Shown in pieces: positions 9,978-43,356 of a stretch of DNA of 61,374 bases. Source of the stretch: an uncultured Cytophagaceae bacterium. Lineage in GTDB: Bacteria > Bacteroidota > Bacteroidia > Cytophagales > Spirosomataceae. The translations under genes were made by a program, and so were the position numbers. The notes below the pieces were generated by a model, which was given only the letters and a program-made list of their open reading frames with translations, ran no database searches and was not told the DNA's origin. The number at the start of each line of letters is the position of its first letter. Within the stretch, counting starts at the first letter, position 1. The stretch is taken from NCBI GenBank assembly GCA_903907745.1, contig CAIVPF010000100.1:1-61374 (forward strand), written 5' to 3'.

Positions 9978-12900
9978 TTATTCATCGTAATTTAACACGG
10001 GACTTAACCATCGTTCCACCTCTTTCAAATCCATCCCCTTGCGTTCGGCATAATCCACCACTTGATCCTTCGCTATTTTACCCAAGGCAAAATAGGTGCT
10101 CTCCGGATGCGAGAAATAAAATCCTGAAACTGCTGAGGCTGGATACATCGCATAACTTTCCGTCAATTGAATCCCTATCTGCTTCTCGGCATCCAATAAT
10201 TCGAACAAACGCTTCTTTTCCGTATGGTCTGGACAAGCAGGATAACCCGGCGCTGGACGAATTCCATGATATTTTTCAGCGATCAATTCCTCATTCGATA
10301 AACTTTCCTCAGCCGCATATCCCCAATACTCCCGTCGCACCCGCTCATGCATGACTTCTGCAAAAGCTTCCGCCAAACGATCCGCCAAAGCCTTCACCAT
10401 GATCGAATTATAATCATCATGCTGCTTTTCATATTTTTCCAATAAAGCTTCAATCCCAATTCCAGTCGTTACGGCAAATGCGCCTATGAAATCGGTCTCG
10501 CCTGATGACAAAGGTGCCACAAAATCACTTAAACACCGATTCGGTAGATTCGCGGCCTTTTGACCTTGTTGGCGCAAATGATGCAACCAAGCCGAATGAT
10601 CCGAATATTCATCCTTTTTCTCAATCACATAGTTTACATGGCTATGTGAACCATGTTTTTCACAAGGAACTTCCTGCTTATCCGCTTGGAAATCATGCAA
10701 AATAATATCATCTCCGAATGAATTGGCCGGAAAAAATCCAAGGGCCGCCTTGGCAGTCAAGGATTTATTCGCAACAATTTCTTTTAATAAAGCCTGGGCA
10801 TCATCAAATAATTTTTTGGCTTCGTGACCCACCACCTCATTGTCAAAAATCTTCGGATATTTTCCGGATAATTGCCAAGTCGAAAAGAATGGTGTCCAAT
10901 CGATGTATTTGGCGATTTCTTCTAAGGAATAATCCTCGAAATATTTAACTCCTAAAAAACTGGGTTGAACTGATTTAAATCCAGTCCAATCTATCCCCGT
11001 CGATTTAGCACGCGCCTGGGCGATCGGTAAATAATTTTTATCCTTTTGACGAGCTGCATGGGAAATACGTAAATCCGCATATTCCTGCTTGATTTCATTG
11101 AAAATCTCTTGAGAAGATAACTCGCTTTGCAACAAACGTCCCGCCACCGGTACCGAACGCGAAGCGTCCAACACATGAATCACCGGCCCATGATAATGCG
11201 GATCAATTTTGACCGCCGTGTGAATCCGCGAGGTCGTCGCCCCACCGATCAACAAGGGAATCGTAAAGCCCAATCGCTCCATTTCCTTCGCCACATACAC
11301 CATCTCATCCAAGGAAGGCGTTATCAAACCCGATAGACCAATAATATCCACCTGATGCTCCTTCGCCGCCGCCAAAATCTTCTCACAAGAAACCATCACG
11401 CCGATATCAATCACCTCATAATTATTACAAGCCAACACCACTCCCACAATATTTTTCCCAATATCATGCACATCACCCTTCACCGTAGCCATCAATATTT
11501 TACCCGCAGACGAACTTTCGCCCACCTGTTTTTCAGCTTCAATATAAGGCAATAAATAAGCCACCGCCTTTTTCATCACTCGCGCAGATTTTACCACCTG
11601 CGGTAAAAACATTTTTCCTTCACCAAACAAATCCCCCACTACATTCATACCATCCATCAAAGGACCTTCAATCACCTCAATCGGGCGATTCACCAAATGC
11701 CGCGCCTCTTCCACATCCTCATCAATAAACTCAGTCAAACCCCGAATTAAGGCATGTTCCAAACGCTTATTTACATGCTGGTGACGCCACGCATCATCCA
11801 CCACTAATTCTTTCCCCGCCGACTTAACCGTTTCCGCAAACGTAATTAATTTCTCCGTCGCGTCTGGATTACGGTTTAACAACACATCTTCACATAAATC
11901 ACGAAGTGGCTGTGCAATCTCATCGTATACGCCTAATTGGCTCGCATTCACAATTCCCATGTCCATCCCAGCCTTAATCGCATGGTATAAAAACACGGTG
12001 TGCATCGCTTCACGAACTAATTCATTGCCACGAAACGAAAAGGAAATATTTGAAACCCCACCTGACACTTTGGCTAATGGCAAATTTGCCTTGATCCATT
12101 TCGTCGCTTTGATGAAATCATTGGCATAATTATTATGCTCATCCATCCCGGTGGCTACCGTCAAAATATTCGGATCAAAAATGATGTCCTGTGCCGGAAA
12201 CCCAACTACATCCACCAAAATCCGATAAGCCCGCTCACAAATTTCGATCCGACGCTCATACGAATCCGCCTGTCCCGCTTCATCAAAGGCCATAACGACC
12301 ACAGATGCCCCATAACGCTTCACTTTTTGAGCGGATTCAATAAATTTCTCCTCCCCTTCTTTCAGGGAAATCGAATTCACGACCGATTTTCCTTGCACAC
12401 ATTTCAAACCGGCTTCAATCACCTCCCATTTCGAAGAATCGATCATAATCGGCAAACGCGCGATATCCGGCTCCGACATTAATAAATTTAAAAATTGTGG
12501 CATCATTTTTACCCCATCGATCATCCCCTCATCCATATTGATGTCCAAAATCTGCGCTCCATTATCCACCTGTTCCCTCGCCACCGCAATCGCCTCTTCG
12601 AAATTTTCCTCCCGAATTAAACGGGCAAATTTCTTTGAACCGGTTACATTACAGCGTTCTCCCACGTTCACGAAATTGGTTAATTCCGTGATTTCCAAGG
12701 GCTCCAATCCTGACAATTTCTGATGATTCGAAAGCGCTGGAATTACATGTGGTTTGTATAGGCTCGCTTTTTCAGCGATGGCTTTAATGTGGGCGGGTGT
12801 GGTACCACAACAGCCCCCGATGATATTGACAAAGCCATGTTGGAGAAAATCTTCAATCACCTCCGCCATTTGTTCTGGCGATTCATCATATTCCCCCATT

Positions 12901-13739
12901 TCATTTGGCAAACCCGCATTCGGATGCGCGGATACAAAAAAGGGCGATTTATCATGCAAAGTCTTCACATAAGGCCGCATCAAATCTGCACCTAAAGCAC
13001 AATTTAATCCCACCGAAAGCAATGGCATGTGCGAAATAGAAGTCAAAAAAGCCTCCGTCGTTTGACCCGACAAAGTTCTCCCCGAAGCATCCGTGATCGT
13101 ACCCGAAACCATCACCGGCAAATATGGCTTGTCGGAATGTTGTTTAAAATATTGGTCTATGGCGAATAAAGCCGCCTTCGCATTCAAGGTATCAAAAACC
13201 GTTTCTACCAATAGTAAATCGGCTCCTCCATCCACCAAACCCCGAACTTGCTCCTGATAGGCTTCCAACAACTCATCAAATGTCACCGCACGAAAGCCAG
13301 GATCATTCACATCCGGCGATAAAGAAAGTGTTCGGTTCGTAGGCCCGATAGACCCAGCCACATAACGCGGCTTATTCGGATCTTTGGCCGTAAACTCATC
13401 TGCGACCTCTCGAGCGATTTTCGCTGACTCAAAATTTAATTCATATACCAAATCTTCCAAGTAATAATCCGCCATCGCAATGGAGGTTCCTGAAAAAGTA
13501 TTGGTCTCGGCGATATCCGCGCCAGCTTCAAAATATTTGGCATGAATCTCCTTGATGACATCGGGACGGGTGATCGACAATAAATCGTTATTACCTTTTA
13601 ATTCATGCGGAAAGTCTTTAAATCGGGTTCCGCGATAATCGGCATCAGATAAGTGATATTGTTGAATTAAGGAACCCATCGCACCGTCGAGAACTAAAAT
13701 ACGATCGAGCAATAAGGTTTGAATCTGGGGTCTCTGCAT
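9978..13739 (-). CDS. Cobalamin-dependent methionine synthase
   Basis: A 1253-residue full-length MetH that moves a methyl group from methyl-THF via B12 to homocysteine. The homocysteine/zinc module has GLNCALG and [10 protein letters not shown] cysteines; the pterin-binding module starts at [11 protein letters not shown]; the B12 module has the DVHDIGKN cobalamin-ligand motif; the C-terminal activation module has [13 protein letters not shown] place the start at the ATG at 13739: a TTG three codons upstream overlaps the -7 promoter element at 13746-13753. metF follows at once. The enzyme makes the cell dependent on cobalamin here; no B12 riboswitch fits in the 24-base upstream gap. Confidence 0.97.
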
Positions 13740-13745
13740 AATCTG

Positions 13746-13753
13746 CAAAGATA
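13746..13753 (-). promoter_or_regulatory. -7 promoter element for metH-metF
   Basis: On the minus strand TATCTTTG fits TAnnTTTG and ends 6 bases before the metH ATG. It sits in the 24-base gap after kdsB, so metH-metF can be transcribed independently, with almost no leader. Confidence 0.6.
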
Positions 13754-28887: not shown

Positions 28888-29634
28888 TTATTTCGCCGCT
28901 AATTTCAAAAAATCAGCTAATTCACTCAAATTGTCCGTACCAATGTAATCCACACCCAAATCCCATAAAGCCTGATAAGCCATCAAGGTATTTGGCGTAG
29001 CCCAAAGGCGTAATTTCCGTCCCGATCCATGTACGCGTTCTACATAAGCTTTCAACTTATCTTTCATCGCCTGGGGCATCGGCACTTGTCCACTCCACAT
29101 GCCAAATTTATACATGGATTCACTTTCTAAGACCACATAATTCCCTAATCCCGCCGGATAGGTCTCCGTAGACCGACCATCAAAGGTAATCCAGCTCGGG
29201 AAGTTGATATAGTCTTTAATCGCCGGGCGATTCCCCGAAATCACAATCCGCAAGCCCGATTTCACAAATAAATCCTTATGCGGCGAGAGCGCTTGAATCA
29301 ATAAAGGCAGCGTCGAATCCGCATTCGTCTTAAAATCAATCAAAAACTGATGGAAATTTCCTTGTTTTTTTGCTTTTAAGACAGCCACAATCGGGTCGAC
29401 GTACAAGGACTTCAAGGTTCGATCCGCTTTTAAATCTCCAATTTCATGGCCGACTAACAATTCCCCTTTCACCGCATATACATCCGCCTCGATCGAACCA
29501 AAACCTAATTTATAAGCCTCAAAAAAGGGTTTCGCATGCTCATAATCATTGTGCGCATGCGCCTTGCTTACATTTTCTTGCGCGATGGCGGGTAAACATA
29601 CACACCAACAGGCAAGAATAAATAGATTTTTCAT
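28888..29634 (-). CDS. GDPD/PI-PLC-like phosphodiesterase family protein (AIM6-like)
   Basis: A 248-residue exported protein: signal peptide (residues 1-18), then the start KAHAHNDYEHAKPFF with the conserved HAHNDY motif, FGSIEADVYAVKGELLVGHE (catalytic Glu-x-Asp), LIDFKTNAD and a TIM-barrel end with YIGTDNLSEL. This variant is the AIM6-type group of the GDPD/phosphatidylinositol phospholipase superfamily, found in many Bacteroidota; its substrate is not established. It heads a probable three-gene minus-strand operon with the isomerase-like and MFS genes. Confidence 0.78.
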   Translation of the reverse strand: MKNLFILACWCVCLPAIAQENVSKAHAHNDYEHAKPFFEAYKLGFGSIEADVYAVKGELLVGHEIGDLKADRTLKSLYVDPIVAVLKAKKQGNFHQFLIDFKTNADSTLPLLIQALSPHKDLFVKSGLRIVISGNRPAIKDYINFPSWITFDGRSTETYPAGLGNYVVLESESMYKFGMWSGQVPMPQAMKDKLKAYVERVHGSGRKLRLWATPNTLMAYQALWDLGVDYIGTDNLSELADFLKLAAK

Positions 29635-29678: not shown

Positions 29679-32600
29679 TTATCGTTTCAAATAATCGCCC
29701 GATGAAATGTAGGTTTGCGCATCCACGGGACGGTTATACACATAGGCATAACTTGCAAATGACTCGCCTTTCATATCCACGCTCACTTGCTTACGCACAA
29801 AAAGACTCTTGGCTTCATCCGTAGGGTCATATTCTTCATATTCGTCTAAAACGTTCAACAATTTAATGGTATTTGACAACAAATACAATTCACCCACCAC
29901 CACGTCTGAACTTGATTCAGAAGCCACAATGCCAGGATAATCCGCTACTTGATACATTTTGCCTTGGTAGGTCGCCATCCCGATATAATCTGAATTTCGG
30001 GCGATTAAGCGATGTAAATCATTGCCACAATCCCGACGCAAGGTCCCATACACAAATAAATATTCTGCCACATCCGGCTCAGGTAATTTAGCCTCCTCTA
30101 AGGTCAATACCAAATCTTCCTGCTCCACCACCGTTCCCTCATTCAATACCACATTCCCCACAATTCCCTCAAATGGCGCCGACACAATCGATTCCATTTT
30201 CATTGCCTCAATCACATATAAAGGCGCATTTTTCTTTACCTCATCCCCTGGCTTTACCAATATCCGACTTAATCGGCCTTGTAATGGCGCTCCTATGTCT
30301 CCTTTGCCATTTGCCTTCGCATGTTGCGCACGCTCCACTTTGATATTTCTATCCAAAATTTTAATCCGACGAGCCTGTCCATTCAAATCAAAGGTCACAT
30401 TCCGCAAGCCTGATTCATCCGGATCCGACATATACAAGAACTTCACAATAATCGTCTTGCCCGGATCGATCGTAATCATGATTTCCTCATCCTGCTTCAA
30501 GCCATAGAAAAATGCCGGCGTAGGCAAGGCCGATAATTCACCAAACAGCGTCGCATTTTTGTAGAAATCTTCGTAGACCTTCGGATACATTTTATAAGAC
30601 AAATAGTCGAAGAATCCATCTAGGTTATCCGGGAATTTCGTTTGAAATTCTTTGTAATCGGCATCGAAATCGATTGGCACCAAATGATCATTCGGGCGAC
30701 CTTCTATCGCATGTTCACCTTTTAAAATAATCTCTTGTAATTGTTTCGGAAATCCTTGATAGGGCTGGCCTAAACCTCCTTTGAAGAAATCCTTCACCGA
30801 TTCAGGGAACGAAAGCGTGCTTCCTTTGGCATACACATCCTCCGCGCTTAAGGAATTCGCCGTCATGAAAATGGCCATATCGCCGACTACCTTCGAAGAA
30901 GGGGTTACTTTGACAATATCCCCAAACAACTTATTCGCCTCCGCATAATTATCTTTCAATAATTCAAATTTATCCCCCACGCCTAACGCAATCGCCTGGC
31001 CACGTAAATTCGTATATTGTCCACCCGGAATCTCATTGTTATATACTTCTGCCGTACCTGCCTTTAATTCTGATTCAAAAGGCGCATACATGATACGAAC
31101 CGCTTCCCAATAATTCGAATATTCATTCAATAAATCTAAATCCAAATCACTGGCATTCGGCTGACCTTGCATCATCGCGACTAAGCTATTCAGGTTGGGT
31201 TGGGACGTTAAGCCCGACATCGCCCCTAATGCACCATCCACAATATCCACCCCCGCCTCAATCGCCTTCAAATAAGTCGCCGATTGTACCGAAGCCGTAT
31301 CATGCGTGTGCAAATGGATTGGAATAGAAACTGCTTGCTTTAATTCGGTGACTAATTTTGCCGCTTGGAAGGGGCGCAAAAGCCCGGCCATATCTTTTAT
31401 GCAGAGCATATGGGCACCGACATCTTCCAGTTGACGCGCCATGTCCACATAATACTGCATGTTATACTTCTCATTCGTAAACACATCGCCCGTATAACAA
31501 ATCGAAGCCTCTGCAATCCCCGGTGTACGTTCCCGAACGGCTTTGATGGACACTTTCATGGCGTCAATCCAATTGAGCGAATCAAAAATCCGGAACACAT
31601 CAATCCCCGCTTCGGAAGATTTCTCTACAAATTTCTCGATCAAATTATCCGGATAAGCTGAATATCCTACGGCATTCGAACCGCGGAATAACATTTGCAA
31701 AAGCATATTCGGCATAGCCTCTCTAAATTCCTGCAAGCGCTTCCAAGGAGATTCTTGCAAAAAGCGCATCGCGACGTCGAAGGTCGCGCCACCCCAAACT
31801 TCCATGGAGAATAAATTCGGGAAGGATTTCGCGAAGCCGCTGGCGACGGCCAACATATCCTGTGTCCGCACCCGTGTCGCCAATAAAGACTGATGTCCAT
31901 CGCGGAACGTCGTATCTGTGAAATAAATTTGCTTCGAATCCCGAATATGTTGGGCAAATTTCTCCGCGCCTAATTCGGTTAATAATTGCTTATTCCCTTT
32001 CGGATATTCCTTGGCGGGATCCACAAATGGGATAATGGGCGTGCGGAAAGCTAGCGTAGGTTTTACTTTCACGTCCGGATTGCCGTTGACAATCACCTCT
32101 CCTAAATAGCGAAGCGCTTTGGTGGAACGATCCCGCGTCTGCACAAATTTGAATAATTCTGGATGCGTATCAATGAATTGCACCGTGCATTGTCCATTTT
32201 GGAAAATCGGATGCGTAATCACGTTCCTCAAAAAGGGAATATTCGTTTTCACCCCCCGAATACGAAATTCTGTCAAAGCCCGGTTTAAGCGCTCAGATGC
32301 CCCGATTAAGGTCCGGCCTTTGGCACTTACTTTTACGAGCATCGAATCAAAATAAGGCGAAATTTTCACCCCAGGATAGGATGAACCTTCGTCCAAGCGA
32401 ATACCAAAACCTGCGGCATTTCGATAGGCGATGATCGTTCCAAAATCGGGCTTAAAGCCATTCGCTGGATCTTCGGTCGTAATCCGACACTGAATCGCAA
32501 AACCCTTTAACGGGATTTCAGCCTGACTTAAAATGTAAATACCCGGATCGGATAATTTATAATTTTGGGCAATCAAAATCTGCGTTCGCACGATATCGAT

Positions 32601-33539
32601 TCCTGTCACTTCTTCCGTAATGGTATGTTCCACCTGAATCCGTGGATTTACCTCGATGAAATAAATATTTTCGTCCCGGTCGACCAAAAACTCCACCGTT
32701 CCCGCATTGTAATAATTTACTGCTTTCCCGATCGCTAGGGCGTAGCCGTATAATTTTTGTTTCGTCTCTTCCTTTAAACCAAAGGAAGGAGCGATTTCGA
32801 CAACCTTTTGAAAACGTCTTTGCACAGAACAATCCCGTTCGTAGAGATGGACTAAATTTCCGTGTTGGTCACCGAGCAATTGCACCTCAATGTGTTTCGG
32901 CTCATCGATAAATTTTTCGATGAAAATCGTTTCATCACCAAAGGCATTTTTCGCCTCATTCCGCGCCTCTTGATACGCTTTTTCTAAATCTTCTTCCTTA
33001 CGTACCACCCGCATGCCTCGACCTCCCCCACCGGCTGCCGCTTTCACCATGACAGGAAACGTAATCCGGCGTGCTTCCGACAAAGCCAATTCATATACAC
33101 TTAAATCACCTTTGGAATCTTGAATCATGGGCACATTGGCCTTAAGCGCGGCCACTTTGGCAGCTACTTTATCGCCCAAGGCACTCATGGCTTCGGGAGA
33201 TGGACCTACGAAGACGATGCCTTCTTCTCGGCACCGACGAGCCAAATTGACATTTTCAGATAAAAATCCATAGCCCGGATGAATCGCATCGATTTTCTTT
33301 GATTTACATAAAGAAATCAAACCCTCAATATCCAAATAAGGCTTCAATGGTTCCGCATCCTTGCCTATCTGGTAGGCCTCATCTGCCTTATACCGGTGTA
33401 AGGAATATCGATCCTCAAAGGTGTAAACAGCTACGGTTCGGATTCCTAATTCTGAAGCCGCCCGCATGATACGAATGGCGATCTCCCCTCGATTGGCGAT
33501 GAGAAGACTCGAGATTTTCTTAACGTATGACTTTGGCAT
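29679..33539 (-). CDS. Pyruvate carboxylase fused to a gamma-glutamylcyclotransferase-like domain
   Basis: A 1286-residue multidomain enzyme that carboxylates pyruvate to oxaloacetate. The biotin-carboxylase domain starts SSLLIANRGEIAIRI and has the glycine-rich AAAGGGGRGMR loop; the carboxyltransferase starts at FTDTTFRDGHQSLLATR; the biotinyl site is Lys1114 in VIEAMKMES. Unusually, a further domain (about 1160-1284) follows a 12-residue linker in frame: YLFVYGTLRRD, LYLLSNTIKLLNVLDEYEEY (Glu1235/1236 near the expected catalytic position) and VRKQVSV, a gamma-glutamylcyclotransferase/AIG2-like fold. The start at 33539 is chosen over 33566, which overlaps promoter-like sequence. Confidence 0.93.
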   Translation of the reverse strand: MPKSYVKKISSLLIANRGEIAIRIMRAASELGIRTVAVYTFEDRYSLHRYKADEAYQIGKDAEPLKPYLDIEGLISLCKSKKIDAIHPGYGFLSENVNLARRCREEGIVFVGPSPEAMSALGDKVAAKVAALKANVPMIQDSKGDLSVYELALSEARRITFPVMVKAAAGGGGRGMRVVRKEEDLEKAYQEARNEAKNAFGDETIFIEKFIDEPKHIEVQLLGDQHGNLVHLYERDCSVQRRFQKVVEIAPSFGLKEETKQKLYGYALAIGKAVNYYNAGTVEFLVDRDENIYFIEVNPRIQVEHTITEEVTGIDIVRTQILIAQNYKLSDPGIYILSQAEIPLKGFAIQCRITTEDPANGFKPDFGTIIAYRNAAGFGIRLDEGSSYPGVKISPYFDSMLVKVSAKGRTLIGASERLNRALTEFRIRGVKTNIPFLRNVITHPIFQNGQCTVQFIDTHPELFKFVQTRDRSTKALRYLGEVIVNGNPDVKVKPTLAFRTPIIPFVDPAKEYPKGNKQLLTELGAEKFAQHIRDSKQIYFTDTTFRDGHQSLLATRVRTQDMLAVASGFAKSFPNLFSMEVWGGATFDVAMRFLQESPWKRLQEFREAMPNMLLQMLFRGSNAVGYSAYPDNLIEKFVEKSSEAGIDVFRIFDSLNWIDAMKVSIKAVRERTPGIAEASICYTGDVFTNEKYNMQYYVDMARQLEDVGAHMLCIKDMAGLLRPFQAAKLVTELKQAVSIPIHLHTHDTASVQSATYLKAIEAGVDIVDGALGAMSGLTSQPNLNSLVAMMQGQPNASDLDLDLLNEYSNYWEAVRIMYAPFESELKAGTAEVYNNEIPGGQYTNLRGQAIALGVGDKFELLKDNYAEANKLFGDIVKVTPSSKVVGDMAIFMTANSLSAEDVYAKGSTLSFPESVKDFFKGGLGQPYQGFPKQLQEIILKGEHAIEGRPNDHLVPIDFDADYKEFQTKFPDNLDGFFDYLSYKMYPKVYEDFYKNATLFGELSALPTPAFFYGLKQDEEIMITIDPGKTIIVKFLYMSDPDESGLRNVTFDLNGQARRIKILDRNIKVERAQHAKANGKGDIGAPLQGRLSRILVKPGDEVKKNAPLYVIEAMKMESIVSAPFEGIVGNVVLNEGTVVEQEDLVLTLEEAKLPEPDVAEYLFVYGTLRRDCGNDLHRLIARNSDYIGMATYQGKMYQVADYPGIVASESSSDVVVGELYLLSNTIKLLNVLDEYEEYDPTDEAKSLFVRKQVSVDMKGESFASYAYVYNRPVDAQTYISSGDYLKR

Positions 33540-33721
33540 TATACTATATTTAGTGCATCTTAACAAAAATGATAAATATATTGGGAAAATAATAACCTGA
33601 AATAGATTAATTTAAGGAAACTTGAAAAGTTACAATTTAACTTGGGTTCATTACAAAAATAATTCCGCATGCTTGTCTTGAAATTTAGTAACTTGCGAAC
33701 CCAAATACCTTTCTTTTATTC

Positions 33722-34732
33722 ATGAGCGCAACGAAACCATTGATTGGGATTACCTTAGGAGATTATAATGGCATCGGTCCGGAAGTTATTTTAAAGGCCT
33801 TAAGTAATTCCCGTTTATTAAATTGGTGTACACCCGTGGTGTATGGTTCGCAAAAGGTATTGAATTTTTATAAAAAGGACTTGGACATCAAAGATTGGTC
33901 CTTGAAGACGATTACGGATCTCCAACAAATCACAGAGTTTAATCAATCCTATCTGGTTTCCTGCTGGGATGACACTAACACAATCGTAGAACCCGGAAAA
34001 GAAACCCAGGAAGCTGGAAAAGCGGCATTTGCTTGCTTGGACCGTAGTGCGCAGGATTTGGATAAGGGATTGCTTTCGGCGCTGGTTACGGCACCGATCA
34101 ACAAGCATAACATTCAATCCGAAGAATTTTCATTTCCTGGCCATACCGAATATTTAACCGAACGATTTGAGGCGAAAGATTCCCTGATGATGCTTGTGTC
34201 GGAAGACATTCGCATGGGAGTGGCGACGGGCCATGTACCTTTATTGGAAGTAGCGAGTAAGCTTAATAAAGAACTCCTCCGTTCCAAAATAGATCTGTTT
34301 TTACAGAGTTTAAAGGAGGATTTCCTGATCGATAAACCCAAATTAGCCGTGTTAGGATTAAATCCCCATGCCGGTGATGGGGGATTATTAGGGCAGGAAG
34401 AAGTAGACATCATTCAACCCGTGGTGGATGAATATCGGGCCAAAGGAAAATTGGTTTTCGGGCCCTATCCCGCCGATGGATTTTTCGGAAAAGCACAATT
34501 CAAGGAATTTGACGGGGTTTTGGGTATGTATCATGACCAAGGTTTGATTCCTTTTAAATACATCGCCTTTGAAACAGGGGTGAATTTCACAGCTGGATTG
34601 CCGATCATTCGCACGTCTCCAGACCATGGTACAGCCTATGACATCGCAGGCAAAAACCAAGCGGATCCAAGTTCCTTTTTACATGCCTTTTTCTTGGCGA
34701 TCGATTTAGTAAAAAATAGAATGAACGCCTAA
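33722..34732 (+). CDS. 4-hydroxythreonine-4-phosphate dehydrogenase
   Basis: A 336-residue NAD-dependent enzyme in de novo pyridoxal phosphate synthesis. It starts IGITLGDYNGIGPEV, carries the metal-binding SFPGHTEYLTERF histidine, LNPHAGDGG, YHDQGLIPFK and the C-terminal RTSPDHGTAYDIAGK, all typical of PdxA. Its stop overlaps the ATG of the next gene by 1 base. It heads a plus-strand run with a 2-hydroxyacid dehydrogenase and mutS2, across a divergent 182-base gap from pyruvate carboxylase. Confidence 0.95.
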   Translation: MSATKPLIGITLGDYNGIGPEVILKALSNSRLLNWCTPVVYGSQKVLNFYKKDLDIKDWSLKTITDLQQITEFNQSYLVSCWDDTNTIVEPGKETQEAGKAAFACLDRSAQDLDKGLLSALVTAPINKHNIQSEEFSFPGHTEYLTERFEAKDSLMMLVSEDIRMGVATGHVPLLEVASKLNKELLRSKIDLFLQSLKEDFLIDKPKLAVLGLNPHAGDGGLLGQEEVDIIQPVVDEYRAKGKLVFGPYPADGFFGKAQFKEFDGVLGMYHDQGLIPFKYIAFETGVNFTAGLPIIRTSPDHGTAYDIAGKNQADPSSFLHAFFLAIDLVKNRMNA

Positions 34733-38655: not shown

Positions 38656-40440
38656 ATGAAAAATTCGCCTAATCATACCTTTCATATCCCGGTGATGGGA
38701 TTAGCTTTTACCATCGATAGTCCAATCAAAGTAGCCCGTTTTGGGATTTCATCAGTTATTTCCATTGCAGAAGATCGGCTAATCGAAATGATGCGCAAGC
38801 ATTATAGCCAGGAAGCGGGATTCGATTATGTGCCTATTGAAAGCCATGAGGCCGATTATCGCGCGCGAAGAATCGAGGCCTATTTGAATTTAGTAGGAAG
38901 TATCGTAGCGAAGCAAGTAGAAAAATTGCGTTTGGAGCCCTTTGGCCAAGGAAAGGAAATCGACCGATATTTTGAGATGTTGCCCGAAAAAAATCCAAGC
39001 CAAGCCCTTTACCTGCGTATGCTGGAAACAGAATATTTATGTGATAAAATTCATTTACAAGATGAATTAAGAAAAGCGATTGTACCTGGGAGCATCGATG
39101 TGAATATCATGACCAAATTAGACAAAAGCAATCCCAATTCAGCCGGGGAAATTTTGGATGAAAATTCGGATGCGGTGGCGGCCTTGCGGGGCTATTCAAA
39201 TTCCCGTTTGGCAGATTCAAGTATTGTGTTTTCAGCCGGTTTAAATCCACGCTTATTCGCTTATTTGGAACATTGTCCAGATTTTAAAGCGGACGAGACG
39301 GGGACGACTAAGAAAAAAATAATTATCAAGGTGACGGATTTTAGGTCGGCACTTATCCAAGGAAAATATGTAGCGAAAAAAGGTTTATGGGTCAGTGAGT
39401 TTCGGATTGAATCGGGCTTAAATTGTGGCGGCCATGCCTTCGCGACGGATGGTTATTTATTGGGGCCCGTTTTGGAAGAATTTAAGTTACGTCGGGCGGA
39501 ATTGTTTGAGGCTATTTCAACCTTAATGCCGGGCGACACCCCAATGCCCGCATTTAAGATTTCGGTTCAAGGGGGCATTGGTACGCATGAAGAAGATAAT
39601 TTTTTGCGGGAAAATTATGAGGTGGATTCGACGGGTTGGGGGACTCCCTTTCTCCTCGTTCCAGAAGCGACCACGGTGGATGAAGAAACGATGCAAGTAT
39701 TAGCGGCGGCGAAGGATGGTGATGTGATTTTGTCCAAAAGTTCACCCTTAGGCGTTCGATTTAATTATTTAAAAGGGACATCGGGGCATATTGAGCGGAA
39801 TCTGCGGATTTTATCGGGTAAATCGGGAAGTCCCTGTACAGAAAAACATTTGGCATTTAATACCGAATTTACGAAGGAACCGATATGCACGGCTTCGAAG
39901 AAATATCAAAAATTAAAATTGGCCGACCTGCAAAAGGCCGAACTATCTGAAACGGAAAGGCTTCAAGCGCGCGAGGATGTGTTAGCCAAAGAATGTTTAT
40001 GTGTCGGCCTTAGTAATTCAGCTGCCATTCGATATAAGGAATTATTTGTAAAAAAATTACATGCGGTGACGATGTGTCCGGGGCCTAATATTGTGAATTT
40101 TTCTAAAATCGTGTCCTTAAAAACGATGATTGATCATATTTATGGGCGTATTCAATCTTTGACAAAATCAAGCAGGCCACATATGTTCATTGCGGAATTG
40201 AATCTGTATGTGGATTATTTGAAGGAGAGTTTGTTGGAAGAAAGTACCCTGGCGGCCTTTGAGAAGCGTAAAAAGTATTTTGGTCAATTTTTCGAAAATT
40301 TATTTCAAGGTATCGCATATTACGGTACGATGGCAGATCAGGTAAGTCAATCAGCCCAAAAGCAATTCAAGATGGCCTTGCAGGAAGCGGAGCTAGAGTT
40401 AGGGCTTTTGAAGGAACAATATTTGTTGGTCACAGGCTAA
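38656..40440 (+). CDS. Cysteine-rich conserved protein of unknown function
   Basis: A 594-residue cytoplasmic protein with no signal peptide or membrane helix. I do not recognise a named family. Cysteines sit at residues 129, 207, 257 (in GLNCGGHAFATDGYLLGP), 394 (GSPCTEKHL), 411, 447 and 449 (KECLCVGLSN) and 474 (MCPGPNIVNFSK). The N-terminus FHIPVMGLAFTIDSPIKVAR and VTDFRSALIQGKYVAKKGLW recall flavin TIM barrels such as nitronate monooxygenases and DHODH-like enzymes; several Cys could bind an iron-sulphur cluster. That is inference. From memory, close relatives occur across Bacteroidota without a name. Its own -7 element is upstream, and a FKBP gene follows after 55 bases. Confidence 0.7.
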   Translation: MKNSPNHTFHIPVMGLAFTIDSPIKVARFGISSVISIAEDRLIEMMRKHYSQEAGFDYVPIESHEADYRARRIEAYLNLVGSIVAKQVEKLRLEPFGQGKEIDRYFEMLPEKNPSQALYLRMLETEYLCDKIHLQDELRKAIVPGSIDVNIMTKLDKSNPNSAGEILDENSDAVAALRGYSNSRLADSSIVFSAGLNPRLFAYLEHCPDFKADETGTTKKKIIIKVTDFRSALIQGKYVAKKGLWVSEFRIESGLNCGGHAFATDGYLLGPVLEEFKLRRAELFEAISTLMPGDTPMPAFKISVQGGIGTHEEDNFLRENYEVDSTGWGTPFLLVPEATTVDEETMQVLAAAKDGDVILSKSSPLGVRFNYLKGTSGHIERNLRILSGKSGSPCTEKHLAFNTEFTKEPICTASKKYQKLKLADLQKAELSETERLQAREDVLAKECLCVGLSNSAAIRYKELFVKKLHAVTMCPGPNIVNFSKIVSLKTMIDHIYGRIQSLTKSSRPHMFIAELNLYVDYLKESLLEESTLAAFEKRKKYFGQFFENLFQGIAYYGTMADQVSQSAQKQFKMALQEAELELGLLKEQYLLVTG

Positions 40441-40495: not shown

Positions 40496-40927
40496 ATGTC
40501 GATTGCAAAAACTGGCGACAAGGTTGCCGTACATTACACAGGAAAACACAGCGATGGCTCTATTTTCGATTCTTCCGTAGGAAGCAATCCCCTTGAATTC
40601 CAATTGGGTTCAGGCATGGTGATCAAAGGATTTGATGATGGTGTGACTGGGATGGGGATTGGTGAGAAAAAAACGGTGATTATTCCGGCTGTTGAGGCCT
40701 ATGGCGAGCATTCTCCTGAGAATACCGTGACGATCGAGCGGACACAAATTCCGAGTCATATCGAATTAACCTTAGGATCTTCCTTGAATATGCACCAAGA
40801 GGGTGGACATGTGATCGAGGTCGTGATTACGGATGTGACAGAAACACATGTGACATTGGATGCGAATCATCCCTTGGCTGGCCGAGATTTAACCTTTGAA
40901 TTAGAACTAGTTAGTATTCAATCCTAA
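40496..40927 (+). CDS. FKBP-type peptidyl-prolyl isomerase, SlyD-like
   Basis: A 143-residue prolyl isomerase/chaperone. The FKBP core has [40 protein letters not shown] and [20 protein letters not shown], with the SlyD-type IF (insert-in-flap) domain between and the end [16 protein letters not shown]. The histidine-rich metal-binding tail of E. coli SlyD is absent. The stop codon overlaps the next ATG by one base (TAATG). Confidence 0.9.
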
Positions 40928-43356
40928 TGAAAATCAACCTGCGCACCTGGCTTCCCCACGGATTAGTAATTCTTGGGTTTATTGTGATGGCCTTTATTTA
41001 TTGTGGACCCCTGTTGCAAGGCAAGGTCTTGGTTCAGCACGATATCCAACAGGCGCAAGCAGCCGCGCAGGAAAGTATTCAGTTCAAAAAAGCCAGTGGC
41101 GAAGAAGCTTGGTGGACCAATTCGATGTTTGGAGGTATGCCAACTTACCAAATTTCCGGCTCCTATCCCTATAGTATTTCTAGTTATTTGGGCAGCTTTA
41201 TCACGAATTTATTCCCAAATCCCGCGAATTTATTGATTTTACAAATGCTGGGCATGTATTTGTTCCTTTGGGCCTTGGGGGCTTCTCCCCTGCTGGGTTT
41301 TGGCGGAGCCATCATGTATGCCTTTGCGACCTATAATATGGTGATTATTCCGGCTGGCCATACCTCCAAAGTCTTGGCACTAGCCTATGCACCCGTGGTA
41401 TTGGCAGGGATTCGGATTTGTTGGTCCCGAAATACTTGGCTCGGCGCTGCGATTTTTGCGCTCGGGATGGCCTTGGAATTATATGCCAATCACATTCAAA
41501 TTACCTATTACTTGTTTTTTATTATTGGGGCTTATAAGATCTATACACTCCTGCAAGCCATTCAATCCAAGGCCTTCGCCGATTGGTTCAAAAAGGGAAT
41601 GATGCTAGCCCTCGGTTTGATTTTAGCAGTTTCCACGCATTCCATGCGTTTATGGAATAATTACGAATATAGCAAAGAGACGACGCGTGGGGCATCGGAA
41701 TTGAGTGCGAATAAAAGTCGGGGCAATGGCCTCGATAAAAATTATGCCTTCGATTGGTCATACGGCATTTCGGAAACGGGAACTTTATTGATTCCTGATT
41801 TTAAAGGTGGGGCTTCGCAGGCTGATTTGGGCGGGAAGGAATCCAATACCTTCAAAACCATGGTGGGTGCTGGCTTGGCCGAGGAACAGGTATTGCCTTT
41901 CGTGGAAAAGGGGCCGGCGTATTGGGGGGAGCAATCCTTCACGGCGGGTCCGGCTTACGCGGGGGCTTTGGTGGTGTTTTTATTCTTGTTTGCAGCTTTT
42001 TATGTGAAGTCCAAAGAAAAATGGTGGATGCTGGGAATCACCCTTTTGTTTATCACTTTTTCCTGGGGCAAGAATTTTGGGCTTAATGGTGTTTTATTTG
42101 ACTATTTTCCGCTGTTCAATAAATTCCGCGCGATAACGATGGTGCTTTCCTTTGTCCAATTGGGCATGGTGGCTCTAGCAATTTTAGGCTTAATCGAATT
42201 CAGTAAATCGAATCCAACCTTTGCGGATATCAAAAAACCATGGCTTTATGCCTTCGGAATAAGTGGCGGATTGTGCTTGTTTTTCGGGCTATTGCCAGAT
42301 CTGTTTTTTGATTTCAAAGGCAGCCAAGATGGCGCCCAATTATTACAAGATGCGCAGATTAATTCGGCCATTTGGAATGCGATACGCTTAGATCGGATCG
42401 ATTTATTCCGGGCGGATGCCTTTCGCAGTTTTATTATTATTGCCTTAGGGGCGGGTTTATTGTATTTAGGAAGTATTCAAAAAATCAAAAAGGCCGCCTG
42501 GGTCATAGGCCTTGTTTTGATCAGTATTTTAGACGTGGCGCCGGTGGCGAAACGCTATTTTGGGAAGGATGCCTTTGTGTCGAAAAGTACGTTAGAAGAA
42601 CAGGTGCAGCCGACGGCGGCGGACCAACAAATGCTCGCTGACACCACGCAATTCCGTGTATTGAATTCTACCACCAATTTCATGAGCGATGCGGGTACTT
42701 CTTATTTCCATCATTCATTAGGTGGATATCATGGAGCCAAATTAAGACGTTATCAGGAATTGATCGAAAAGTATTTTGGTGGCAGTCCGGCGCAAATGAG
42801 CGTGTTGAATATGCTGAACACCAAATATGTGATCGGCGCGGATTCAGTGGGACAAGCCATCGCCCAAACCAATCCGAATGCCTTAGGAAACGCATGGTTT
42901 GTGAAAAATATCATGTGGGCGGCGCAGGCAGATGAAGCCTTAATGGACATCGAAAAATTCAATCCGGATAGCACAGCCATTATCGAAAAACAAGATCAGC
43001 TCTTATTGGCTGGATTTAAGCCAGCGGCGGATCAGGTAGGTGTGATCTATTTGCAGCACTATGAACCTAATCATTTGACTTATGGGTCCAATAGCAATCG
43101 GCCCGCGTTAGCTGTATTTTCTGAAATTTACTACCGTGGAAATCAGGATTGGAAGACCTATGTGGATGGCAAGGAAGTGAAACATGTGCGGGCAGATTAT
43201 GTCTTGCGCGCGATGGTGGTTCCGGCAGGAAAACATAAGATTGAATTTAAATTTAAGCCCTATTCGGTTGAAATGGGCACCAAATTGGATGCGGCAGGCT
43301 CGATTCTTTTATTGCTTTTTGTGGGAATTGGCTTTTTGATGGCATTTAAAAAATAA
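40927..43356 (+). CDS. YfhO-family membrane protein (large, GT-C-like)
   Basis: An 809-residue polytopic protein of the YfhO family. About 11-12 hydrophobic helices span residues about 12-550, beginning [13 protein letters not shown], and are followed by a soluble C-terminal domain (about 560-780) with [12 protein letters not shown] and a final helix. The layout and the acidic loop after helix 1 recall GT-C glycosyltransferases; the Bacillus relatives are linked to lipoteichoic-acid glycosylation. Substrate unknown here. It overlaps the FKBP gene by 1 base and is 3 bases before yicC. Confidence 0.82.

Follow-up and report, generated by a model that had tools for sequence, protein, structure and literature searches.

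Organization of the fusion locus

The window, by which we mean the whole 61,374-nt stretch of DNA analysed here, carries on its minus strand a gene (29679..33539; 1,286 codons plus stop) in which pyruvate carboxylase (PC, pyc) is followed in frame by a GGACT/AIG2-like domain (PF06094). The corresponding minus-strand open reading frame, 29679–33566 (-), is uninterrupted over 1,295 codons and begins with an in-frame TTG at 33566; the ATG at 33539 is the likely start codon, and residues are numbered from it below.

A complete PC architecture (biotin carboxylase, carboxyltransferase, PYC_OADA and biotinyl domains) was found in one chain by Pfam. The biotin carboxylase part (Biotin_carb_N, CPSase_L_D2 and Biotin_carb_C) occupies 32169..33515 (-), and the carboxyltransferase and PYC_OADA part, for which Foldseek also returned PC structures, occupies 30441..31484 (-); the HMGL-like match within the carboxyltransferase part spans positions 133–257 of the 260-position profile. 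The biotinyl carrier domain (Biotin_lipoyl) lies at 30099..30296 (-). Its biotin-site residue, Lys1114, is encoded at 30198–30200 (-), as read from the sequence, and sits in an AMKM motif, from which its biotinylation is predicted. The same chain matches the NCBIfam PC equivalogs TIGR01235 (residues 11–1147; 1623.9 bits against a cut-off of 1114.45) and NF009554 (residues 6–1147), both ranges being counted in a 1,285-aa query lacking the initial Met, so that one has to be added for ATG numbering.

Behind the carrier, the alignment of fused proteins delimits a linker of about 10 residues containing LPEP (residues 1149–1158; 30066..30095 (-)), which leads into the PF06094 domain (residues 1159–1286; 29682..30065 (-)) recognized by Pfam, alignment and structure modelling. 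The Pfam match, at residues 1161–1284, is nearly full length (profile positions 1–119 of 120; E 2.8e-20, 73.5 bits, cut-off 22.8). Alignment places a Tyr-Gly-Thr-Leu loop at residues 1164–1167 (30039–30050 (-)) and a catalytic-type glutamate, Glu1235 in LDEYE, at 29835–29837 (-). Sequence-level evidence confirms the product of the window gene as a predicted complete pyruvate carboxylase, a linker and a complete PF06094 domain. Lys1114, LFVYGTL at 1161 and LDEYEE at 1231 were all located where the initial annotation had put them, Glu1235 being the conserved glutamate of the last motif.

Distribution of the fusion

As a query against the 222 family genomes we used the C-terminal 208 residues of the fusion protein. 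Some match was returned by 221 of them, and in 55, belonging to eight genera, the carrier and the PF06094 domain shared one stop-free frame, so the fusion is neither a chance event nor a local frameshift. These genomes, together with Pfam and the alignment, bear out the central claim of the initial annotation that PC runs on into a complete GGACT-type domain with the catalytic glutamate in place. Fused genomes make up 37 of 38 in the window's genus (g1), 8 of 8 in g2 and 5 of 5 in g11, and the single genomes of g12, g14, g18, g24 and g31 are each fused. It had also been considered that the two parts might always be separate genes in relatives; instead, 54 of the 55 other genomes of the eight genera are fused, and the remaining one, G036 of g1 (89% complete), gave no match to the 208-residue query.

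An open frame of full length (at least 1,280 aa) was found in 48 of the 55 fused genomes. The shorter frames of G033, G003, G008, G035, G025 and G027 end at a contig end, judging from their coordinates, and in G045 (L088) two overlapping frames upstream of the fused end share the PC part between them, a pattern that a frameshift or an assembly error would produce. The split in G045 is the one feature that recalls an assembly or frame artefact, and nothing of the kind applies to the window. For the fusion as such an artefact is refuted, its probability being close to nil, by the occurrence in 55 genomes of eight genera, among them the single-contig genome G012 and two isolates with species names, Sandaracinomonas limnophila FSY-15 and Arcicella rosea, whose frames measure 1,286 and 1,285 aa.

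The other 28 genera of the family yielded no fused row among the matches listed. Outside the family, no row spanning both domains was present among the matches listed for 390 order, 395 class and 395 phylum genomes, these samples being overlapping sets in which a diverged fusion could split into two BLAST pieces. Among the matches listed, the order sample contained 12 rows spanning both domains, all within the family, and the class and phylum samples contained only the window's genome. Short peptide patterns, which reach close relatives only, were also run against species genomes and hit 11 loci, of which ten are fused and one is a free gene of an archaeon. Two odd rows, in G498 and G1050, cover the carrier's end and the domain but contain a stop; the one in G498 corresponds to a free gene.

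Copy number and origin of the fused domain

Each of the 55 fused genomes contains exactly one PF06094 match. The domain was found in 213 of the 222 family genomes, so its function is near-universal in the family; 27 of the 28 unfused genera also have a match, in short separate frames among the matches listed. The sole match could be placed at the fused locus, among the matches listed, in 42 of the 55 fused genomes, and in 11 of the remaining 13 the fused domain itself passes the PF06094 cut-off; in G007 and G011 the sole match is presumably the fused domain as well. A second copy was rejected because of the one match per genome. Release of a free domain from an internal start was also rejected: no ATG, GTG or TTG at residues 1116–1168 is common to all 50 fused genes compared, the commonest being TTG at 1145 (31/50) and GTG at 1157 (19/50). 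For this comparison, as for residue conservation and the domain tree, we used 50 of the 55 fused genomes with duplicate loci removed (G007, G011, G025, G026 and G027 are missing). Separately, the intact fused gene of G038 is followed downstream by a recently duplicated fragment of its 3′ end (L084, 4548–4757 (-)).

Trees built from the PC part only, omitting the extra domain (42 rows, 23 of them fused), placed the fused proteins on one side of one branch, with a support of 0.988 in FastTree, and with an SH-aLRT of 100 and one change of state in IQ-TREE. The trees indicate that the fusion arose once. In the FastTree tree the fused clade has as its sisters the PCs of G125 and G176. Both end at the carrier, as do all 19 aligned unfused PC relatives; in these two genomes the PF06094 match lies in frames of 158 and 135 aa, respectively. 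The fused domains likewise fall on one side of one branch, a long one with an SH-aLRT of 99, in a domain tree of 94 rows and few columns, which does not single out the free gene nearest to them. Because each fused genome has a single PF06094 match, the data favour derivation of the fused domain from the resident free gene.

The initial annotation had suggested a check for stand-alone genes behind pyc in relatives, and none is present in the 19 pyc loci without the fusion. Where one contig carries both genes, as in 11 unfused genomes, pyc and the free gene are separated by 0.57 Mb or more. These two results led us to reject an operon origin. Together with the single origin, the same results lend themselves to the idea that the domain is a neutral passenger, joined by chance and fixed as the free gene was lost, so that its placement on PC means nothing. 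Against it stand the invariant LPEP of the linker and the lack of any separation of the two parts in 55 genomes, and we consider it very unlikely. The free genes have surroundings of their own: a small MmcQ/YjbR-like gene precedes the free gene in 11 of the 19 loci compared (L113–L119, L121, L123, L124 and L126, representing four genera), and an ispG-like gene occurs further upstream in 10, both names having been assigned by eye.

Conservation and predicted structure of the domain

The Tyr-Gly-Thr-Leu loop and Glu1235 are kept in all 50 fused rows. Loop Tyr, Gly and Leu together with Glu1235, Arg1249 and Tyr1266 are identical in 50/50 fused and 44/44 free rows, and Gly1281 is kept in 49/50 fused rows, the remaining row stopping at a contig end, and in 44/44 free rows. 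Profile alignment to solved structures matches Glu1235 with the glutamate of mouse and human GGACT. A report on mouse GGACT lists Tyr7, Gly8, Thr9, Leu10, Ile50, Glu82, Tyr88, Tyr115 and Tyr143 in the catalytic site (PMC2954230), and PDB entry 3jud is titled as the E82Q mutant of human GGACT. The equivalent of Tyr88 (domain position 89, residue 1247) is Phe in 50/50 fused rows, as against Tyr in 42/44 and Phe in 2/44 free rows; thus, specificity or rate may have shifted. Domain position 106 (residue 1264) is Tyr in 45/50 fused rows and Trp in 41/44 free rows. Judged by alignment, Phe at 89 and Tyr at 106 form a signature of the fused clade.

The dN/dS ratio of the domain was 0–0.063 in 9 of 12 hand-picked pairs, dS being saturated in the other three, which indicates strong purifying selection. 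Over 23 rows, mean column entropy was 0.31 bits for PC residues 1–1070, 0.58 for the linker and 1.03 for the domain, so that the domain drifts faster than the carboxylase. LPEP is invariant and the length of the linker unchanged in 23 of 23 full-length fused proteins. The linker is more conserved than the domain, beyond what an idle tether would seem to require, and this favours a role related to PC.

An AlphaFold model of the lone domain was confident (pLDDT 94, pTM 0.88). Its top Foldseek matches were Pyrococcus PH0828, Bacillus YkqA and mouse and human GGACT, with allophanate hydrolase lower; the fold matches the GGACT structures 3jub, 3juc and 3jud (3jub: probability 1.00, TM 0.66 by query length). 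A model of residues 472–1286 reached a mean pLDDT of 83.7 and a pTM of 0.68. Its pLDDT falls below 50 at linker residues 1151–1155, and consequently no fixed pose of the domain against PC is predicted. The suggestion that the domain may be an inactive add-on is made unlikely by the retained catalytic residues (glutamate and loop in 50/50), the purifying selection, the confident fold and the sole PF06094 match in each fused genome.

Metabolic context and gene neighbourhood

The initial annotation had suggested that the fusion might couple carboxylation to 5-oxoproline/glutathione-type or acyl-amine chemistry. In a 5-oxoproline pathway both activities would feed one route, from gamma-glutamyl compounds through 5-oxoproline to glutamate, together with the oxaloacetate made by PC. 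The window's genome offers some material for it: homologues of PxpB, PxpC and PxpA are adjacent to one another (G000:C29, around 9781; L136), PxpB and PxpC scoring below the curated NCBIfam cut-offs, and two gamma-glutamyltransferase matches are present. No Hydantoinase_B and no GCS2-type ligase, the only ligase type sought, were found in this genome (93% complete). PxpA, however, occurs in 51 of the 222 family genomes, of which 19 are fused (19 of the 55 fused genomes, all within g1, where they are 19 of 38) and 32 unfused, and several of the fused genomes lacking it are 99% complete, others being less so. With PxpA this patchy, its route of 5-oxoproline disposal does not hold the fusion together, and a fixed pathway of this kind is not borne out. 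The genes downstream of the fused gene also differ between genera. We regard metabolic coupling as distinctly unlikely.

The downstream neighbour in the window (28888..29634 (-)) has no Pfam match at E ≤ 1e-8. It adjoins pyc in all seven loci compared from the window's genus and g31, but not in the other fused loci compared. Upstream, pdxA (33722..34732 (+)) is divergently oriented; of 23 fused loci compared, 18 have it no more than two genes away from pyc on that side, and two of the other five have no upstream sequence. We treat both neighbours as context only. The frequent retention of pdxA counts against the reading that we prefer below, yet it fits plain inheritance of the locus. Elsewhere in the window, 9978–13748 (-) encodes a full set of B12-dependent methionine synthase domains, and 38656–40440 (+) and 40927–43356 (+) encode proteins without a Pfam match at E ≤ 1e-8.

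Proposed role of the fused domain

Pyruvate carboxylase is the textbook swinging-carrier enzyme, and the lineage of eight genera described here retains a second, enzyme-like domain at that carrier's end, with no free copy detected. The account that we lean towards, and consider somewhat probable, is that a housekeeping enzyme of the gamma-glutamyl-amine cyclotransferase type was relocated onto the biotin carrier of PC, where it would still be active with its reaction not chemically coupled to that of PC. A single old fusion would have placed the only detected PF06094 protein in frame behind the biotinyl carrier domain. Through Glu1235, the domain would act on small gamma-glutamyl-amines, cyclising their glutamyl moiety to 5-oxoproline with release of the amine, while the PC part would go on carboxylating pyruvate. 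The link between the two would be mainly structural, a short conserved linker tying a domain of about 14 kDa to the mobile carrier; the domain would thus travel with the carrier, and its amount would be locked one-to-one to that of PC.

This account draws on what the sequences show: the fusion and its single origin, the lack of another PF06094 match, the conserved catalytic-type residues and the purifying selection. From these we infer that the domain is active, to which substrate class it belongs, that it moves with the carrier and that no chemistry links the two reactions. As to movement, a domain of this size on a linker of about 10 residues should have to follow the carrier. According to one report, the PC carrier can move between active sites by several productive paths, of which one is acted on by acetyl-CoA (PMC5895798).

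The main rival to an active, merely relocated cyclotransferase is regulation through the biotin carrier, in which binding of a gamma-glutamyl or glutamate-related metabolite to the domain alters carrier movement or docking, tuning carboxylation to nitrogen status. The conserved linker of fixed length by which the domain is tethered to the carrier speaks for it, as do Phe at position 89 in 50/50 and Tyr at 106 in 45/50 fused rows, unlike most free enzymes, and the reported action of acetyl-CoA on carrier movement in PC (PMC5895798). The invariance of the catalytic glutamate and loop and the lack of another PF06094 match in fused genomes suggest, however, that the enzymatic activity is probably still required; the model, in which the linker is of low confidence, shows no fixed contact with PC; and aspartate inhibition of PC is reported not to act through carrier movement (PMC5895798). 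We retain regulation as a doubtful but serious possibility, mainly because the linker is conserved although no fixed pose is predicted.

It is highly improbable that the domain instead serves the carrier itself, by clearing the carrier lysine, when unbiotinylated, of stray gamma-glutamyl groups or by acting on a carrier-held ligand. This idea overlaps with the relocated-cyclotransferase reading because both need an active domain; if it were true, PC would be an enzyme with its own repair tool on a swinging arm.

Whichever of these holds, the fusion is a natural test of the load that a PC carrier can bear and of whether such a load tunes carboxylation. It also provides a handle on the poorly understood AIG2/GGACT-like function of bacteria, because mutating the fused domain removes the only PF06094 protein detected in fused genomes.

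Comparison with known systems

The PC part shares its full BC-CT-carrier architecture, AMKM biotin site and equivalog match with the bacterial enzymes of Staphylococcus aureus, Lactococcus lactis and Rhizobium etli, to which it is 45–51% identical among the Foldseek matches listed. The fused protein differs from these enzymes by its additional 128-residue domain, whereas its own aligned unfused relatives stop at the carrier. Human and mouse GGACT (A2LD1; PDB 3jub, 3juc, 3jud and 1vkb) have in common with that domain the fold, the Tyr-Gly-Thr-Leu loop and the equivalents of Glu82 and Tyr115; they differ in identity (about 20%), in the Phe that replaces Tyr88 and in not being joined to PC. The fused domain is most likely a gamma-glutamyl-amine cyclotransferase-type enzyme, its substrate class being predicted. 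Free AIG2-like proteins, such as Bacillus YkqA, E. coli YtfP and those of the same taxonomic family, belong to the same protein family but are encoded by separate genes. The 44 free family rows resemble the fused domain in having the Glu1235 equivalent and loop Tyr, Gly and Leu; E. coli YtfP, unlike it, has no Glu at the LDxYE position in the profile alignment.

Foldseek also found the fold in the Kluyveromyces allophanate hydrolase/urea amidolyase (PDB 4ist and 4iss; 4ist_A, E 8.6e-4). In yeast, allophanate hydrolase shares one chain with the biotin-dependent urea carboxylase, and urea amidolyase is therefore a precedent for such a fold joined to a biotin carboxylase, although its domain order and reaction differ from those of the PC fusion. 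The window protein itself is not a urea amidolyase: it scores 493.3 bits for urea_carbox against a cut-off of 1303.85, and no amidase is among its Pfam matches.

Both parts of the protein belong to known families; judged from sequence, the combination amounts to a PC that has gained a further enzyme domain, one that is probably active. No publication on the PC-PF06094 combination was found in the open-access literature, which leaves out most subscription journals; the architecture may be visible in public databases, which hold named records of such proteins. Cyclotransferase-like matches in overlong frames were also noted in G917 and G913 (441 aa each), G1196 (285 aa), G880 (271 aa) and G135 (280 aa), and these are possibly other fusions.
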